Assembly: GCF_900182935.1 (NCBI RefSeq)
Contig: NZ_FXUE01000002.1
Span: 868,001-932,000, forward strand
Source of the DNA: Fibrobacter sp. UWB10
Lineage (GTDB): Bacteria; Fibrobacterota; Fibrobacteria; Fibrobacterales; Fibrobacteraceae
Direction: 5' to 3'
DNA length: 64,000 nucleotides
Shown: positions 5,001 to 61,691 of the stretch, piece by piece
How the letters are laid out: each line of letters starts with the position of its first letter
How positions within the stretch are numbered: the stretch's first letter is position 1
Translations under genes and position numbers: made by a program
The notes under the pieces: model-generated
The model's database searches: none
Told to the model about the DNA's origin: nothing
The model's input: the letters and a program-made list of their open reading frames with translations, nothing else

Positions 5001-5645
5001 GGTGGTGACGGTTGGGCATACGACATCGGTTACGGTGGTCTCGACCACGTGATGGCCACGGGCGAAAACGTGAACATCTGCGTCCTCGATACCGAAGTGT
5101 ACTCCAACACCGGTGGACAGGCTTCCAAGGCCACGAACCGTGGCGCAGTCGCCCTCTTCGCTGCCGCTGGTAAGCGCGCCGGCAAGAAGGACCTCGGCCT
5201 TATCGCCATGAGCTACAAGAACGTTTACGTTGGCCGTATCGCCCTCGGCGCAAACGATGCTCAGGCCCTCAAGGTTCTTCAGGAAGCAGAAGCACACAAT
5301 GGTCCGTCTCTGATCATCTGCTACTGCCCCTGCATCAACCACGGTTTCGATCTCAACAGCCAGCTTCAGCACCAGAAGATGGCTGTGGATTCCGGTTACT
5401 GGACTCTGCTCCGCTACAACCCGGCTCTCGCCGCCGAAGGAAAGGCTCCGCTTATCCTCGACTCCAAGAAGCCGACGATCCCGGTTGCAGAATACATCTA
5501 CACCGAAAACCGCTACAAGCAGCTCACCCGTAGCAATCCGGAAGTGGCCAAGAAGCTCGCCGACGACCTCCAGAAGGAAGTCGATGCACGCTATGCATTC
5601 TACGATGCCATGAGCAAGGATACCGAAGGGCTGATCAGCCTGTAA
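2076..5645 (+). CDS. nifJ: Pyruvate:ferredoxin (flavodoxin) oxidoreductase
   Basis: Cytoplasmic 1,189-residue single-chain PFOR that oxidatively decarboxylates pyruvate to acetyl-CoA, reducing ferredoxin. The length is typical. The N-terminal pyrimidine-binding domain starts with YPITPSSPMAEHAD. Two ferredoxin-type 4Fe-4S clusters are visible near residues 690-770 (CVQCGKCAMVCPHAA and CTGCGVCTQAC). The proximal-cluster Cys pair is at GSCAGCGETAY. The TPP motif region GGDGWAYDIGYGGLDH is near residue 980. The start is ATG at 2076, because GGAGA lies five bases upstream; an in-frame TTG at 2064 is less likely. Codon use is strongly biased, as in highly expressed genes. The last 624 coding bases are duplicated at 12635-13353. 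Confidence 0.97.
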   Translation: MAKKMIACDGNEATASVAFAVSEVAAIYPITPSSPMAEHADNWSAAGKKNIWGQVPRVFEMQSEGGAAGTVHGALQAGALTTTFTASQGLLLMIPNMYKIAGELTPTVFHVTARALAMQGLSIFGDHSDVMACRQTGFAMLASSCVQECQDLALVAHASTLESRVPFMHFFDGFRTSHEVMKIEALEDGVIRNVIDEKYVKACRERCLTPDRPTMRGTAQNPDVYFQGRETVNPFYLKVPEIVQKYMDKVASYTGRQYHIVDYVGAPDAERVIISMGSSTCTIGDTVKYLNSKGEKVGLVNIRLYRPFPMEAVVAALPKTVKKIAVLDRCKEPGSAGEPLFQDALTAISEAVMAGKIAMPKMIGGRYGLSSKEFTPAMVKAIYDELAKADPKARFTVGINDDVCHTSLTIDPNFKLESDFFQAMFFGLGSDGTVGANKNSIKIIGNETDNYAQGYFVYDSKKSGSMTTSHLRFGKSIIDAPYLIGENEADFVACHHTPHLESVNMLKYAKDGATFLVNTPHSADTVWDTFPRPVQEEIIKKHLKVYVIDAYAVAAKTGMGRRINTVMQTCFFSKLGNVLDAETAIKYIKKYAEKTYAKKGQEVVQKNWDAIDASLANLFEVKVPATVTSTKEFRAPIHGDAPKFVNEVTAEIIKGNGELLPVSKMPCDGVFPTATTKYEKRDLALNIPSWNPDACVQCGKCAMVCPHAAIRVKVVDESAVKNAPEGFKFTPAKGFKLEGSDKPVFAISVSSYDCTGCGVCTQACIGKDKADETKKAINMVPQEPIKVQEGKCWDFFVDLPEFDRTKVNKNLVKQAMLLEPLFEFSGSCAGCGETAYVRLVSQLFGDRMVVANATGCSSIYGGNLPTTPWAKNKEGRGPAWANSLFEDNAEFGLGMRLAITKHAKQALSLLEAVNVPAELKEKLTTQKQDDEAGIKAQRENVAALKAALAGATDEASVSLRDEFADYLVKKSVWIFGGDGWAYDIGYGGLDHVMATGENVNICVLDTEVYSNTGGQASKATNRGAVALFAAAGKRAGKKDLGLIAMSYKNVYVGRIALGANDAQALKVLQEAEAHNGPSLIICYCPCINHGFDLNSQLQHQKMAVDSGYWTLLRYNPALAAEGKAPLILDSKKPTIPVAEYIYTENRYKQLTRSNPEVAKKLADDLQKEVDARYAFYDAMSKDTEGLISL

Positions 5646-5698
5646 TCGGAAGTGTCATCCTGAGCGGAACGCCGCAAGGCGTGAAGTCGAAGGATCTC
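5022..5698 (+). repeat. Source copy of the nifJ 3'-end duplication
   Basis: This 677-base segment covers the end of nifJ and 53 bases after its stop codon. It is repeated in direct orientation at 12635-13406, so the two copies flank the intervening island of about 7 kb. Both copies stop matching right after the same GATCTC. Confidence 0.9.
5653..5697 (+). repeat. Dispersed palindromic (REP-like) repeat
   Basis: GTCATCCTGAGCG...GAAGGATCT, the widespread intergenic palindrome type found between genes in many bacteria. Here it directly follows the nifJ stop codon and includes an inner GCCGCAAGGC hairpin. The same element is at 13361-13405. Confidence 0.75.
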
Positions 5699-7504: not shown

Positions 7505-8773
7505 TTAATAATTTTTTACACAACGAACAGAGACTCCATATTTTTTGGGATTAGCTGCATCAAACGTAGAGTATTTTGAAATGCCACCTCCCATGCTTTT
7601 ATTTTCTACAGGCTCGGTTTCCCTTGGAAAACCATAATACCCCCCCCCTCCAATATTATCAAAAAAAGAATCTCCATTTTCCTCAAAGCATCTATATCCC
7701 GCAGCAATAAAACTAAATCCAGAGGTATTGTACCCAAAACTAATCGAATACGAGACCTCCGACGCAAGCGTACTCATTCGATCTTCAATATAAGTGCTTC
7801 CGCCTGTCGCATAAGATACGGCGAGCATTTCCAGCTTAGTAATCAAGTGCCAACCGCTCGGGCAAATTCCCTGGTGGAACCCATCATGGTCGGGATCTAT
7901 CTGGTCGGCACAACTCTTGCTATTGCACTCATACGGCAACGCCATCATTTCGGCCCACTGGTAGAGTCCGCCCCACCAGTCGTTACAATATTCAACGCTA
8001 TCGTTATAGCAATACATTTCAACCTTGGTATCATCGTCCTGTTCATTTGCACCGAGCGTTATCTTTTCATGATATTTTAGGTTTTGCGCAAAAACTGTAA
8101 AAGTGATTTTAGGAACGCTGTCCGGGCCGTACTTGTTCGTTATTTCAATGGTCGCATACTTCGTTCCATCACGAGTGTCTTCATATTCACCATAAGACAA
8201 GTTATAACCCAATGGACTCGGCAGGGGTTCATAGCCTCGGCTACTGCTGCTGCGGGCGACGGAACTAGATGAGGGAGGAAGATAAACGACCCACACACCA
8301 TCTACACATTTGGCGAATTCATCTCCTATTTTTTTCTTTAAGCCTTCTTTTGGGCAAGGTCCCCCCATTACATCTTTAGAACTAGAAGAAGATACGGAAA
8401 TTTCACTCGAAGATGAACTAACTGACGAACTGGACTTATCCTTACTACTGCTAGAAGATTCACCCGACTTCACAGAACTTGAGCTCTTGGAGTCGGACGA
8501 GTTCTTTGTTTCTTTTGCGGAACTACTGGACACTTCGGCGGGCTCGGAACCCTTGACACTACTGGAAGACTTGTCTTTTTCCGTAGATTCATTTCCTGAC
8601 GACTTCTTGTCAACAGAAGATGATGACTCATCCAAATCAGAAGTTTCTACCGATGAACTGGAAGTACCGGTTTCGTCGCCACTCGCCGACGAAGAGTCAT
8701 CGCAGGCGGAAAGGGCGAAGAATGCCGCGAGCACCGCCACCCACAAGAAACCAAGACCCTTGACACACTTCAT
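7505..8773 (-). CDS. FISUMP-domain lipoprotein (array member 1)
   Basis: A predicted lipoprotein of 422 residues. The signal peptide ends ALSAC (Cys24). A poly-Ser linker runs to about residue 140. A Cys-pair module follows (CPKEGLKKKIG...AKCVDGVWV), then a second short Ser stretch, then the FISUMP domain (MYCYND, GGLYQWAEMM, GICPSGWHLIT, GVSVRCVKN). The ATG at 8773 was chosen because GGAG sits upstream and the signal peptide starts there; an in-frame TTG at 8851 would add 26 residues but overlaps the upstream micro-gene. The first 80 or so bases, plus sequence before the start, are nearly identical to array member 2. Confidence 0.88.
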   Translation of the reverse strand: MKCVKGLGFLWVAVLAAFFALSACDDSSSASGDETGTSSSSVETSDLDESSSSVDKKSSGNESTEKDKSSSSVKGSEPAEVSSSSAKETKNSSDSKSSSSVKSGESSSSSKDKSSSSVSSSSSEISVSSSSSKDVMGGPCPKEGLKKKIGDEFAKCVDGVWVVYLPPSSSSVARSSSSRGYEPLPSPLGYNLSYGEYEDTRDGTKYATIEITNKYGPDSVPKITFTVFAQNLKYHEKITLGANEQDDDTKVEMYCYNDSVEYCNDWWGGLYQWAEMMALPYECNSKSCADQIDPDHDGFHQGICPSGWHLITKLEMLAVSYATGGSTYIEDRMSTLASEVSYSISFGYNTSGFSFIAAGYRCFEENGDSFFDNIGGGGYYGFPRETEPVENKSMGGGISKYSTFDAANPKKYGVSVRCVKNY

Positions 8774-8873
8774 ACCATTATCTCCTGTAAAAATTTTCAC
8801 CACCCACAAACCAAGCAATGTGAAATATGGAATGTGGAATTTATACCGCAAAATCCATCATCAGACGAGGCTC
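8689..8873 (-). repeat. Homogenised 5' cassette, copy 1
   Basis: About 185 bases spanning the micro-gene C-terminus, the 67-base spacer, the ribosome site and the signal-peptide codons. They differ at only a few positions from 10020-10206. Sequence on both sides diverges sharply. Confidence 0.85.
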
Positions 8874-8930
8874 AAGTGCCTCTATTTTGTAATTGTTTAG
8901 ATTCTTGTCGTTCGGATTTTTCTTAGCCAT
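8841..8930 (-). CDS. Micro-gene with LEPR motif, copy 2 (29 residues)
   Basis: ATG at 8930 has GGAG seven bases upstream. The peptide begins MAKKNPND and ends KIEALEPRLMMDFAV. It is basic at the N-terminus and has no export signal. It sits 31 bases after the stop of the FISUMP gene at 8962 and 67 bases before the start of the FISUMP gene at 8773. Copy 3 has the same length range and an almost identical C-terminal half. It may be a leader peptide, a free micro-protein or a truncated surface-protein start. Confidence 0.6.
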   Translation of the reverse strand: MAKKNPNDKNLNNYKIEALEPRLMMDFAV

Positions 8931-8961: not shown

Positions 8962-10107
8962 TTACCTTAAAAAAGTATCGCCTTCGTCTTGTACACATCG
9001 AATACTCATAAAACCATACTTTCTTGCCGAACTTACTGTGAAATCATCAATAGTAAAATCAACTACTCCGCCATTACTCTCAGACTTTTCGTAGGGGATC
9101 CAAAAACTGGACACTTTATTATAAGGGTATTCATCACCGCTTGGTAGCACGGACATTCCATAAGGATTATTTCCTCTCTTCTTTTCCCATACTGCATGAG
9201 ATAGTAGAGAATAACTCATATTTAATCCGTTTGTGTAGGCAAAGTGCTTCCATTCGGTTTCCGTCATCACGTGCCAACCCGTCGGGCATACCCCCTGAAC
9301 TTTTTTGCTAAGGTCAATGTTGCACTTGGGGTTATCTGCAACACCAACGCTGTCACACACCTTGGGGAGTCCCATCGCCTCGCTCCAGGTGTAACGGGCA
9401 CCAAAGTAGTTGTCGCAATACCAGGGGTCATCCTTGTAGCAGCGTTTTTCGACCTTGCTGTCATCAAATACTGTCGTGGTGCTGTCAATCATTATTTCTG
9501 CGTAATTCAGGTTCTGAGCCATTACGGTAAAACTGTCTATTACAGTTCCACCATTCTGCTGGAACTTTTCATAATATTTGGTTGTCTTGTAAACATTGTT
9601 ATCACGCAAATCTTCGTACGTGCCGTATGCTTTAAACTCCGACCCAAATACGCTATCCATATTCGGGTAAACCTTGGGTTTCACATATTCACCAATGGAA
9701 TCTTGATTCCATTGGCCATTTTTGCAACTATTGTAATAGATTTTACCGGCAAGAACAATCGATGAGGTATCACCGTCTTCACAAAGTTTGAACACAAATT
9801 CAGAGCTGCTACTTTCTCCCTTCTGCGACGAGCTACTGTTTTTTGTGTTTTCTTTTTTTGATGACGAACTATTTGATTTGGCATCGCTTGAAGAATCTTT
9901 ACTCTGATTATCAGAAGATTCAATCTTTTTATCAGAGCTACTTGATTCGTCATCACAATCCTTACAGACCGAAGATGAAGAATCAACCGCCGCACTTTCA
10001 TCCGGTCCGTTGCTAGAGGCCGACGATGAGTCATCGCAACCGGAAAGGGCGAAGAACGCCGCGAGCACCGCCACCCACAAGAAACCAAGACCCTTGACAC
10101 ACTTCAT
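8962..10107 (-). CDS. FISUMP-domain lipoprotein (array member 2)
   Basis: A predicted lipoprotein of 381 residues with signal peptide ending ALSGC (Cys24). A Ser-rich linker extends to about residue 105 and is less regular than in its neighbours. A single Cys-pair module (KLCEDGD...NSCKNGQW) precedes the FISUMP domain (MAQNLNY, KRCYKDDPWYCDNYFGARYTWSEAMGL, GVCPTGWHVMT, SIRCV). The start at 10107 is set by GGAG and the signal peptide, as in member 1. The mature part is clearly different from member 1 although the leaders are near identical. Confidence 0.88.
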   Translation of the reverse strand: MKCVKGLGFLWVAVLAAFFALSGCDDSSSASSNGPDESAAVDSSSSVCKDCDDESSSSDKKIESSDNQSKDSSSDAKSNSSSSKKENTKNSSSSQKGESSSSEFVFKLCEDGDTSSIVLAGKIYYNSCKNGQWNQDSIGEYVKPKVYPNMDSVFGSEFKAYGTYEDLRDNNVYKTTKYYEKFQQNGGTVIDSFTVMAQNLNYAEIMIDSTTTVFDDSKVEKRCYKDDPWYCDNYFGARYTWSEAMGLPKVCDSVGVADNPKCNIDLSKKVQGVCPTGWHVMTETEWKHFAYTNGLNMSYSLLSHAVWEKKRGNNPYGMSVLPSGDEYPYNKVSSFWIPYEKSESNGGVVDFTIDDFTVSSARKYGFMSIRCVQDEGDTFLR

Positions 10108-10206
10108 ACCATTATCTCCTGTAAAAATTTTCACCACCCACAAACCAAGCAATGTAAAATATGGAATGTGGAATTTATACCGCAAAATCCATCATCAGAC
10201 GAGGTT
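10020..10206 (-). repeat. Homogenised 5' cassette, copy 2
   Basis: Partner of 8689-8873. It includes the shared end of the LEPR micro-gene, the 67-base spacer and the signal-peptide region. Confidence 0.85.
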
Positions 10207-10261
10207 CAAGCTGTTCGATTTTGAAATTGTTCATTCCGCGATTGTATTTTTTCTTAGCCAT
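10175..10261 (-). CDS. Micro-gene with LEPR motif, copy 3 (28 residues)
   Basis: ATG at 10261 is preceded by AAGGA. The peptide begins MAKKKYNR and ends KIEQLEPRLMMDFAV. It lies 24 bases after the stop of the FISUMP gene at 10286 and 67 bases before the next FISUMP start. The last 30 or so bases of the gene belong to the homogenised cassette. The first half differs from copy 2 but keeps the MAKK start and the Asn-rich, basic character. Confidence 0.6.
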   Translation of the reverse strand: MAKKKYNRGMNNFKIEQLEPRLMMDFAV

Positions 10262-10285: not shown

Positions 10286-11494
10286 TTAGTCTACTTTTAC
10301 GCACCGAACTGAGAATCCATGCGTTTTGTATGTATCCTGCGTACTGTTTGATTTCGAACTTCTTGTTTGAAGCCCAACAAAAGAAGCAATATTATTATCA
10401 TTAGAACGACCTTCTTCCGGATAGTGCCAATAAGCAGACTCTTCTATATTTCTAAATTCATAGTTCCAATTATATCCAGCACCAATCAGTCCATATCCAC
10501 TATAATTAAAGCCACCAAAGCCCATGCTCCGAATATCGGCAACACCATTTCTATTTCCATTTGCATGCACAACGACATACATATCATCATAAGTTAAAAG
10601 TCTCCATCCATCTGGGCAAATTCCCTGATGGTTTGGCTTAATAGAGTCAGCACAACTCTTGGTGTTGCATTCGCTCGGCAACTTCATCATTTCCGCCCAT
10701 TGATAGAGTCCGCCATACTCTTCGCATTTCATTGTATCATTGTCATAACAATACCGCTCAATCTTGGAATCATCATTTTGATCCTTATTGCCGTCGACCA
10801 TTTCGCCGACATTTAGATTTTCCGCCATGACAGTTACAGAGGCAGCTTTACCATCCTGATTTTTACCATTGATTGTCAGATAATAGTAGGATCGTCCCTC
10901 ATATGTAAACTTTTTGTACGCCCCAGCATGCATACTATCAGCCCCTAATGCTCGATTGCAGAAAGCATACCCAGGCGTGCATAATCTGGAAGAGTCAACT
11001 TCAAAAACGGAACTACTGGATTTAGGCAAGACAGAACTTGAACTAGACTGTTTCACAGAAGAACTGCTACTTTGCATTTCACTCGAAGACGAACTCACCG
11101 ATGAACTAGAGTTGTCCTTGTTGCTGCTGGATGAGTCATCGGACTTCACAGAACTTGAACTCTTGGAGTCAGATGAATTCTTTGTTTCTTTCGCGGAACT
11201 ACTCGACTTAGCGTTACTACTCGATGACTGGTCTTTTTCCATATTTTCGTCACTAGACCCATTCGACTCCGCTGACTCCGGAGCCTGTCCTGAACTTGTC
11301 GAAGGACTCAGGGTGACACTCGAATCAGACGACTCTACAGACGAACTGGAAACACTTGTTTCATCGGAACTTGCCGACGACGAGTCGTCGCAAGCCGAAA
11401 GGGCGAAGAGTGCCGCGAACAAGAAGATGGTTAGAGATTGCTTCCCCTGAAACAAGTTCAGGGTCGCAATGACACGCTGGAAAGACTTTTTCAT
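10286..11494 (-). CDS. FISUMP-domain lipoprotein (array member 3), with in-frame repeat insertions
   Basis: A predicted lipoprotein of 402 residues. The signal peptide is unusually long and ends FALSAC (Cys35). Residues 8-20 (VIATLNLFQGKQS) are encoded by a dispersed GTCATTGCGA...GAAGCAATC palindrome. A second repeat in the linker encodes VTLSPSTSSGQAPE. The Ser-rich linker ends near residue 165 and the FISUMP domain follows (MAENLNVGE, RYCYDND, YGGLYQWAEMM, GICPDGWRLLT, GFSVRCV). The domain is close to that of the gene at 519-1550. GGGAT precedes the ATG. It is the first gene of the reverse-strand array. Confidence 0.88.
   Translation of the reverse strand: MKKSFQRVIATLNLFQGKQSLTIFLFAALFALSACDDSSSASSDETSVSSSSVESSDSSVTLSPSTSSGQAPESAESNGSSDENMEKDQSSSSNAKSSSSAKETKNSSDSKSSSSVKSDDSSSSNKDNSSSSVSSSSSEMQSSSSSVKQSSSSSVLPKSSSSVFEVDSSRLCTPGYAFCNRALGADSMHAGAYKKFTYEGRSYYYLTINGKNQDGKAASVTVMAENLNVGEMVDGNKDQNDDSKIERYCYDNDTMKCEEYGGLYQWAEMMKLPSECNTKSCADSIKPNHQGICPDGWRLLTYDDMYVVVHANGNRNGVADIRSMGFGGFNYSGYGLIGAGYNWNYEFRNIEESAYWHYPEEGRSNDNNIASFVGLQTRSSKSNSTQDTYKTHGFSVRCVKVD
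11281..11317 (-). repeat. Dispersed repeat inside coding sequence (linker)
   Basis: On the minus strand it reads GTCACCCTGAGTCCTTCGAC and continues AAGTTCAGGACAGGCTC, a common intergenic palindrome. It is translated in frame within the Ser-rich linker of the FISUMP gene. Confidence 0.8.
11436..11473 (-). repeat. Dispersed repeat inside coding sequence (signal peptide)
   Basis: On the minus strand: GTCATTGCGA, a hairpin CCCTGAAC / GTTTCAGGG, then GAAGCAATC. It is translated in frame inside the signal peptide of the FISUMP gene, displacing its N-terminal region. Confidence 0.8.
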
Positions 11495-11709
11495 AAAAAC
11501 ATCCCCGTCTATAGTTTATCCTGTTAAATATAGGTAATGCCCCTGCCAAAGTCCATACCTCCCCCATTGTAAAATTTAGGAAACAAGACAAGAGTCCAGA
11601 ATAACGCAGAAAAACAACTTTTTTCAAGGTTTTCCGTCATTATGGTAGATTTGGCGAATTATACGCGGGCTATTTTCGAATTTATGAAAAAGGATTATCT
11701 CACCAAAGC

Positions 11710-12634: not shown

Positions 12635-13353
12635 GACATCGGTTACGGTGGTCTCGACCACGCCGTGAGCCGTAGGCGACTCGTCATAACGAGTCGTCGG
12701 AGGCGAGAGTGAGCGCCGACCGGAGTGCCACGCAAGAATCTAGCGCGAACGGTCATCATAGGGCCACCGGTGAAAACGTGAACATCTGCGTCCTCGATAC
12801 CGAAGTGTATTCCAACACCGGTGGACAGGCATCCAAGGCCACGAACCGTGGCGCAGTCGCCCTCTTCGCTGCCGCTGGCAAGCGCGCTGGCAAGAAGGAC
12901 CTCGGCCTTATCGCCATGAGCTACAAGAACGTTTACGTGGGCCGTATCGCCCTCGGCGCAAACGACGCTCAGGCCCTAAAGGTTCTCCAGGAAGCAGAAG
13001 CACACAATGGTCCGTCTCTGATCATCTGCTACTGCCCCTGCATCAACCACGGTTTCGATCTCAACAGCCAGCTTCAGCACCAGAAGATGGCTGTGGATTC
13101 CGGTTACTGGACTCTGCTCCGTTACAATCCGGCTCTCGCCGCCGAAGGAAAGGCTCCGCTTATCCTCGACTCCAAGAAGCCGACGATCCCGGTCGCAGAA
13201 TACATCTACACCGAAAACCGCTACAAGCAGCTCACCCGTAACAATCCGGAAGTGGCCAAGAAGCTCGCCGACGACCTCCAGAAGGAAGTTGATGCACGCT
13301 ATGCATTCTACGATGCGATGAGCAAGGACACCGAAGGGTTGATCAGCCTGTAA
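12635..13353 (+). pseudogene. nifJ: Truncated 3' copy of nifJ
   Basis: It encodes the last ~200 residues of the PFOR, ending at the same stop codon as the intact gene. Only the C-terminal part is present, so it cannot be a working enzyme. Between 12663 and 12771 the frame is broken by about 105 extra bases. From 12772 to the stop I count 18 base differences from the intact gene. Seventeen are synonymous and one changes Ser to Asn. That pattern indicates that this copy evolved in a functional gene before it was cut off. Confidence 0.9.
12663..12771. mobile_element. Small inserted element within the nifJ fragment
   Basis: Compared with the intact gene, about 109 bases replace four (TGAT). The insert has a hairpin GACTCGT / ACGAGTC (loop CATA), the text GCCGTAGGCG (also found between the B repeats at 36350) and an end GGTCAT that recalls the ATGACC end of family B. 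It encodes nothing and looks like a small non-autonomous palindromic insertion. No target duplication is evident. Confidence 0.6.
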
Positions 13354-13418
13354 TCGGAAGTGTCATCCTGAGCGGAACGCCGCAAGGCGTGAAGTCGAAG
13401 GATCTCCCCTTTACGAAA

Positions 13419-61617: not shown

Positions 61618-61643
61618 GTCATTGCGAGCGTAGCGAAGCAATC
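61618..61643 (+). repeat. Dispersed palindromic repeat GTCATTGCGAGCG...GAAGCAATC
   Basis: The same repeat type that is inserted in frame in the FISUMP gene at 11436-11473, here in an ordinary intergenic place after leuD. Confidence 0.75.
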
Positions 61644-61657
61644 ACCTACCCGATATT

Positions 61658-61691
61658 GTCATCCTGGAGCCACGTAGCGGCGATAGGATCC
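61658..61691 (+). repeat. Dispersed palindromic repeat GTCATCCTGG...AGGATCC
   Basis: A degenerate relative of the repeat after nifJ (5653-5697). Confidence 0.6.

Follow-up and report, generated by a model that had tools for sequence, protein, structure and literature searches.

The closest described relatives of the elements considered here belong to the CGTC-tagged REP superfamily, whose members include in-frame copies within the genes for UvrA, UvrB and DNA ligase, according to the accessible text of Di Nocera et al. (2013, PMC3733652). Rickettsia palindromic elements (RPEs) are likewise palindromes that are translated in frame in conserved genes and tolerated there (PMC2229807, accessible portion). 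The earlier note on this DNA had named them as a precedent, which is fair inasmuch as in-frame insertion into protein genes is the shared trait (50 of 183 copies here); by description, with the sequences uncompared, the two are set apart, RPEs being rickettsial and 105–146 bp long, whereas the in-frame cores in Fibrobacter span 24–48 bp. A repeat forming part of one predicted signal peptide is described in the available part of Delihas (2007, PMC2759123), for Yersinia RU-2 (YPAL) in YPO1552. However, as presented there, RU-2 is one 168-bp element that contributes hydrophobic sequence at single loci, whereas the Fibrobacter elements are short, form the n-region or the start, and do so in numerous genes, recurrently among orthologues.

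Our searches of the open-access literature turned up no earlier account of such elements in the genus Fibrobacter or of the leader described below, nor of signal-peptide n-regions being replaced one after another by REPs; searches on the letters of the repeats gave mainly unrelated papers, as judged from titles and the starts of abstracts. In-frame REPs and RPEs are already known; what is new, to the extent of our searches, is that export signals have been rewritten repeatedly and that the leader is a mosaic.

Fibrobacter is a bacterium of the rumen. The window is the whole stretch of 64,000 nucleotides analysed here, taken from the 3.48-Mb genome of Fibrobacter sp. UWB10 (G000). Its relevant features are as follows.

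10286–11494, minus strand: Fib_succ_major (FISUMP) lipoprotein gene carrying both repeats (ORF, 402 aa; Pfam PF09603)
11426–11575, minus strand: shared leader of about 150 bp that joins a 5' region to the n-region and barely varies among 19 type-A copies
11558–11565, minus strand: G tract of the leader, G5AGG (from sequence)
11436–11473, minus strand: first palindromic repeat, signal-peptide n-region, GTCATTGCGA-[CCCTGAACTTGTTTCAGGG]-GAAGCAATC, encoding VIATLNLFQGKQS
11390–11434, minus strand: hydrophobic core and lipobox (LTIFLFAALFALSAC), not part of the repeat (from translation)
11256–11317, minus strand: second palindromic element, GTCACCCTGAG...GAATGGGTC, encoding the linker VTLSPSTSSGQAPESAESNG
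11288–11306, minus strand: nested hairpin TCCTTCGACAAGTTCAGGA inside the second element (from sequence)
61618–61643, plus strand: intergenic relative of the first repeat, centre GCGTAGC (from sequence)
61658–61690, plus strand: third repeat type, an intergenic GTCATCCTGG...AGGATC element adjoining the preceding repeat (from sequence)

The first-repeat family and the CGTC REPs

The family was searched for with the two-armed pattern CATTGCGAN{5,35}AAGCAATC, using the reversed pattern as a control. The forward pattern has 9 copies in the UWB10 genome, is found in 55 of 61 genus genomes and reaches a maximum of 76 copies in one genome, while its reversal has 0 matches in every one of the 61, and the family is therefore not due to chance. 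Allowing up to 3 mismatches, the first repeat itself occurs at 46 places in 25 of 80 genus genomes, and a stricter family pattern was found in 28 of 60 genomes sampled across the phylum, in 7 of 29 genera. We also observed, outside the genus, closely spaced inverted pairs resembling REP dimers (G102:C18:13278-13336 and G102:C121:8343-8401).

The architecture of the element was read from 183 distinct copies collected around matches in nine chosen genomes (eight relatives and UWB10 itself), with ORFs called by a home-made caller; many members of the genome set are metagenome assemblies. The triplet before CATTGCGA is CGT in 138 of the 183 copies and TGT in 41 (together 179), the stem base ATTGC/GCAAT is invariant, though the search pattern itself fixes both arms, and the stem is followed by C, then T or C (180/183), then A (116/183). 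Five fixed pairs are followed by a GA/GAA internal loop and a centre of very variable length. Pairing this centre end to end reveals little stem, but a stem emerges once a one-base asymmetry is allowed, and its covariation is directly visible: pair 12–18 is standard in 46 of 50 distinct 30-mers, compared to a best of 30 among 500 shuffles, and the 46 include GC (16), CG (13), AT (12) and TA (4). Judged by its sequence, the first repeat is a REP of the CGTC type with a co-varying, predicted hairpin centre.

Like the CGTC superfamily in the accessible text of PMC3733652, the Fibrobacter element has a CGTC or TGTC tag and an A–T stem base, may have a short CCA-like tail, includes some in-frame copies, and flanks no transposase (here, at nine Y1_Tnp loci). 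However, the four families described in that text have stems of 8–9 bp and loops of 4–5, and the variable centre and internal GA/GAA loop therefore place the Fibrobacter element outside families 1–4. The same text, as far as it is available, does not mention Fibrobacter, whose phylum is not among the five that it names, nor does it describe a recurrent use in signal peptides such as we find here. Assignment to the GTAG REPs associated with RAYTs requires a GTAG tag, whereas the tag here is CGTC or TGTC. Mobilization by a RAYT was considered and rejected: Y1_Tnp genes are present in 27 of 80 genomes, with one in UWB10, yet no first-repeat copies flank the nine loci examined (eight in relatives and the UWB10 locus), and the leader-bearing genomes G005, G030, G033, G049 and G057 have no Y1_Tnp. 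The description of the repeats as normally intergenic holds for the first-repeat family, with 131 of the 183 copies lying between genes.

The window gene, its leader and its linker

The product of the window gene matches PF09603 over residues 223–400 (E 7.7e-12), which corresponds to a C-terminal Fib_succ_major domain; we note in passing that this domain has been reported as a target of diversity-generating retroelements (PMC4159848, accessible part). At the other end, the translation presents a basic n-region, a hydrophobic core and a lipobox before Cys (MKKSFQR...GKQS-LTIFLFAALFALSA-C), as predicted for a lipoprotein signal peptide, and initiation at the upstream ATG would yield a product beginning MKKSFQRVIATLNLF.... 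Both palindromes lie in frame in this gene and encode VIATLNLFQGKQS and LSPSTSSGQAPE, as the earlier note had stated, and the first does recur at 61618, but with a different centre. The further suggestion, of an export signal rebuilt by a single insertion, does not fit this gene: neither the hydrophobic core nor the lipobox belongs to the repeat, which forms the right-hand end of a leader common to 26 genes.

Of 80 Fibrobacter genomes, 19 contain the 5' part of this leader, with 26 copies in all on differing lipoprotein bodies (reversed control 0); a genome collection of 84,980 species yielded the leader core in 14 stretches, Fibrobacter every time. Across the 19 type-A copies, some with single substitutions, positions −81 to +68 (counted from the ATG) are conserved at 0.94 or more, with sharp edges beyond which conservation is lower, declining gradually on the coding side. 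The remainder comprise four type-B copies, one hybrid joined at CATTGC and two deletions that open from an overlapping upstream ATG (MFYEEV...). Type A encodes VIATLNLFQGKQS, type B encodes PRSLSLPKGR and the deletion form MFYEEVLQS, such that the residues alter with the repeat, and in none of the 26 copies are the same residues encoded by other DNA. The type-B leaders (MKNFIAP.SLSLPKGRLITIF), one of which ends at a contig edge, carry another palindrome; their n-region is coded by this CCCTGAGCTTGCCGAAGGG element and is near-identical in all four (L058, L060, L063 and L042).

Comparing the window-gene copy with eight other copies region by region, we obtained identities of 97–99% for the 5' region and 97–100% for type-A n-regions, with 60% for the single type-B n-region. 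Outside the leader, identity is 34–98% further upstream, 74–92% in the h-region and 56–76% in the C-terminal domain. For four of these genome pairs, the EF-G-like gene offers a comparison: at its third codon positions, UWB10 is 75% identical to G030, 60% to G057, 53% to G049 and 49% to G043. The upstream stretch of the G043 copy is 98% identical to that of the window gene but its C-terminal domain only 59%, and the parts of these genes are therefore mosaic. The joining of a common leader to varied surface-protein bodies is a likeness, at the level of sequence, to sapA of Campylobacter fetus, reportedly a multigene family in which variable bodies follow a conserved 5' cassette.

Within the leader lie a promoter-like pair, TGGACT-17-TATATT, and the G tract, which is an unbroken G8–G10 in 23 of the other 25 copies, with two not scored. 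This variation in length among the leader loci (L039–L064) may constitute a slippage switch. A known RNA was rejected as an identity for the leader, since it has no Rfam match and its predicted fold is no better than that of shuffled sequences (z −0.19). Two neighboring FISUMP genes share a different leader of 224 nt (8674–8897 and 10008–10231, 92% identical) on different bodies, with the signal peptide MKCVKGLGFLWVAVLAAFFALSAC or SGC, and the sharing of leaders is therefore wider than the repeat-bearing type.

The linker of the window gene is Ser-rich, and the repeat within it is, as we read its sequence, a mosaic, the whole element spanning 11256–11317 around an inner hairpin. In the form originally proposed, this second repeat has no further copy in the UWB10 genome: the 12 exact CTTGTCGAAGG matches comprise the window gene itself, two elements related to the GTCATCCTGAG...GAAGGATC type and nine sites with no palindromic context. 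Nor is it a simple insertion, as orthologues and paralogues hold a shorter version of the element. Among the seven leader-bearing loci that have this linker, the long form is found in L046, L057 and L061, and a form shorter by 8 residues (LSGASAES) in L045, L047, L063 and L064, the window gene having 24 additional nucleotides with the extra nested hairpin. The short form can itself be read as a GTCACCCTGAG...TGGGTC element, and the linker was therefore probably repeat-derived before the nested hairpin arose.

In-frame copies and signal-peptide n-regions across the genus

Besides the 131 intergenic copies, the census holds 50 in frame in called ORFs and two at ORF edges; the 50 still include L225, a non-palindromic false positive. 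Copies removed by hand from earlier lists, because translation probably starts beyond the repeat or the ORF itself is questionable, are L185, L205, the first copy of L228, L233, L268, L275, L297, L331, L333, L344 and L347, while L179 is uncertain. As orthologues share some insertions (for example L296/L329, L293/L330 and L190/L302/L315), the independent events number fewer than 50. The orientation of the in-frame copies is biased, with the GTCATTGCG strand as the coding strand in 41 of 49. A frame-compatible length was rejected as a marker of insertion, since in-frame and intergenic copies do not differ in core length modulo 3.

Hosts confirmed by Pfam include UvrB, LigA (with the element inside the adenylation domain), MnmE, HemC, TrpC-TrpF, PriA, a DegT aminotransferase, YidC, an EF-G-like GTPase and a UvrA-like protein, among others. 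Two of the nine copies in UWB10 are in frame, namely those in the window gene and in an EF-G/ribosome-protection-like GTPase, where the loop peptide is SLRAEGEAI. Among 30 orthologues of the latter, the loop holds a first-type repeat in G000, G005 and G030, an element like GTCATCCTGAG...GAAGGATC in G079, G035 and G012, no recognizable repeat in G063, G003 and G049, and other or unclassified sequence in the rest.

Signal peptides were assigned by an automatic, hydrophobicity-based rule, requiring the repeat to lie within the first 35 codons directly before a hydrophobic core. By this rule, 9 of the 50 in-frame copies form an n-region, compared to 273 of 20000 random codons (1.4%, p about 2e-8), and L003, L277, L284 and L355 were recognized by eye where the rule had missed them. 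Examples include MRKFGMNS-VIASVAKQS-LLALFLSIALIAC, MNKMKKN-VIASVAKQS-FAALSIASLVFMTAC and MDCKN-VIARSEATKQS-IFHSSLFILPILAF. A Shine-Dalgarno-like sequence precedes the upstream ATG in L178, L192, L207, L229, L301, L354 and L355, and downstream starts are possible in some N-terminal cases (for example L229 and L233).

Orthologues with and without the repeat can be observed side by side in two exported proteins, and it is to these related genes that the rebuilding of an export signal by a repeat does apply. In a DUF1302 protein (30 orthologous loci) the mature part is conserved, but 12 of the 30 have an n-region made of the repeat: in full in G030, G072, G031, G049, G045, G051 and G001, as its 3' half with GTG, a possible start, in G012, G060, G033 and G037, and in degenerate form in G010. 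A simple repeat is found in G057 and others, nothing recognizable in, for example, G000, and G069 has an MIK start identical to that of G051, with the repeat absent. In an ExbB-like protein (30 loci), the n-region is a first-type repeat in G057, a GTCATCCTG-type element in G010, G037 and G020 or a remnant of one in G073 and G012, a simple repeat in G000, and ordinary, short and repeat-free in G049, G029 and G060. Some candidate start codons in these series fall within the repeat itself. Several genes, including L399 of UWB10, relatives of the ExbB-like protein and L353, also have N-terminal and linker segments (DERRETRDER) encoded by simple tandem GACGAGAGACGAGAG repeats.

Dozens of related species offer a natural before-and-after series of non-coding repeats turning into protein parts. 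The signal peptides show this most clearly, since their n-region is swapped while the remaining protein is conserved, and the old question of whether selfish repeats seed new protein sequence thereby becomes directly testable by export assays.

Origin of the repeat-derived export signals

Taken as a whole, we consider it probable that palindromes of the CGTC-REP kind inside genes are tolerated in frame, and that the n-region repeat of the window gene arrived with a leader spread or homogenized by recombination. CGTC-REP-like elements would be scattered through Fibrobacter genomes, the majority remaining between genes, and genic insertions would survive only if the frame is kept and the added 8–15 residues are harmless. 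Tolerant sites would include low-complexity linkers, surface loops and domain junctions, with n-regions foremost relative to chance. The basic core can be read through in three forward frames, of which two code for basic peptides (VIA..AKQS and SLRAKRS..KQS) that suit the needs of an n-region, and thus an element near the start of a gene for an exported protein can become or replace this region; one beside the start may even provide a TTG or GTG start codon. The repeat in the window gene would then not have been gained separately, but would close, on the right-hand side, a leader of promoter, 5'-UTR and n-region that was probably spread or homogenized among the lipoprotein genes of the genus. 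The repeat-derived parts are presumably translated and exported, and we infer tolerance rather than benefit for most copies.

A bolder reading, which we offer only tentatively, is that REP elements act as a standing supply of export-signal starts, repeatedly overwriting the start codon and n-region. One product would be the leader, a portable cassette of promoter, slipping G tract, 5'-UTR and REP-coded n-region that is moved by recombination and may switch surface lipoprotein genes on and off; this extension is equally tentative.

The leader and repeat might instead be conserved for a regulatory role of the DNA or RNA (promoter, G tract, or a hairpin after the start codon), the peptide being incidental. 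Near-invariance from −81 to +68 takes in synonymous sites and could reflect selection on regulation rather than spread, and both the promoter-like pair and the differing G-tract lengths would suit such a role, which we nevertheless consider unlikely: the fold and Rfam results give it no support, and in 7 of the 26 copies the repeat has been swapped for type B, hybridized or cut by a deletion while the 5' part is retained. Selection could also have acted on the peptide, if insertions were favored for altering export or translation initiation of surface proteins. The n-region excess, the recurrence of replacement at the same place in the DUF1302 and ExbB-like proteins, and the two basic forward frames all fit, but repeat-free orthologues possess ordinary short signal peptides, and N-termini accept changes in length, so that tolerance accounts for the excess equally well; we regard this adaptive origin as decidedly unlikely.

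It is very improbable, to our minds, that translation starts inside or after the repeat, leaving it wholly or partly 5'-UTR. This is the likely situation in L205, L233, L268, L275, L331 and L333, dropped by hand, and many NH2-terminal REPs were judged extragenic on this ground by Di Nocera and colleagues (PMC3733652, accessible text); in the window gene, a TTG within the repeat could likewise yield MFQGKQSLTIFLF. However, that TTG has no Shine-Dalgarno-like sequence, neither ATG nor GTG occurs between repeat and lipobox, and GACGGGGATG precedes the upstream ATG. A chance match or assembly artefact, for which we found no supporting point, is already refuted by the presence of the leader in 19 and of the repeat in 25 of 80 genomes, and by the recovery of the leader from Fibrobacter alone in the 84,980-species collection.

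Elsewhere in the window, a segment of 300 nt is duplicated with 97% identity (5054–5353 and 12762–13061), and identical GTCATCCTGAG...GAAGGATC elements accompany it at 5654–5696 and 13362–13404. The second copy lies beside the FISUMP genes, at 12709–13353, in what we take to resemble a C-terminal fragment of pyruvate:ferredoxin oxidoreductase.
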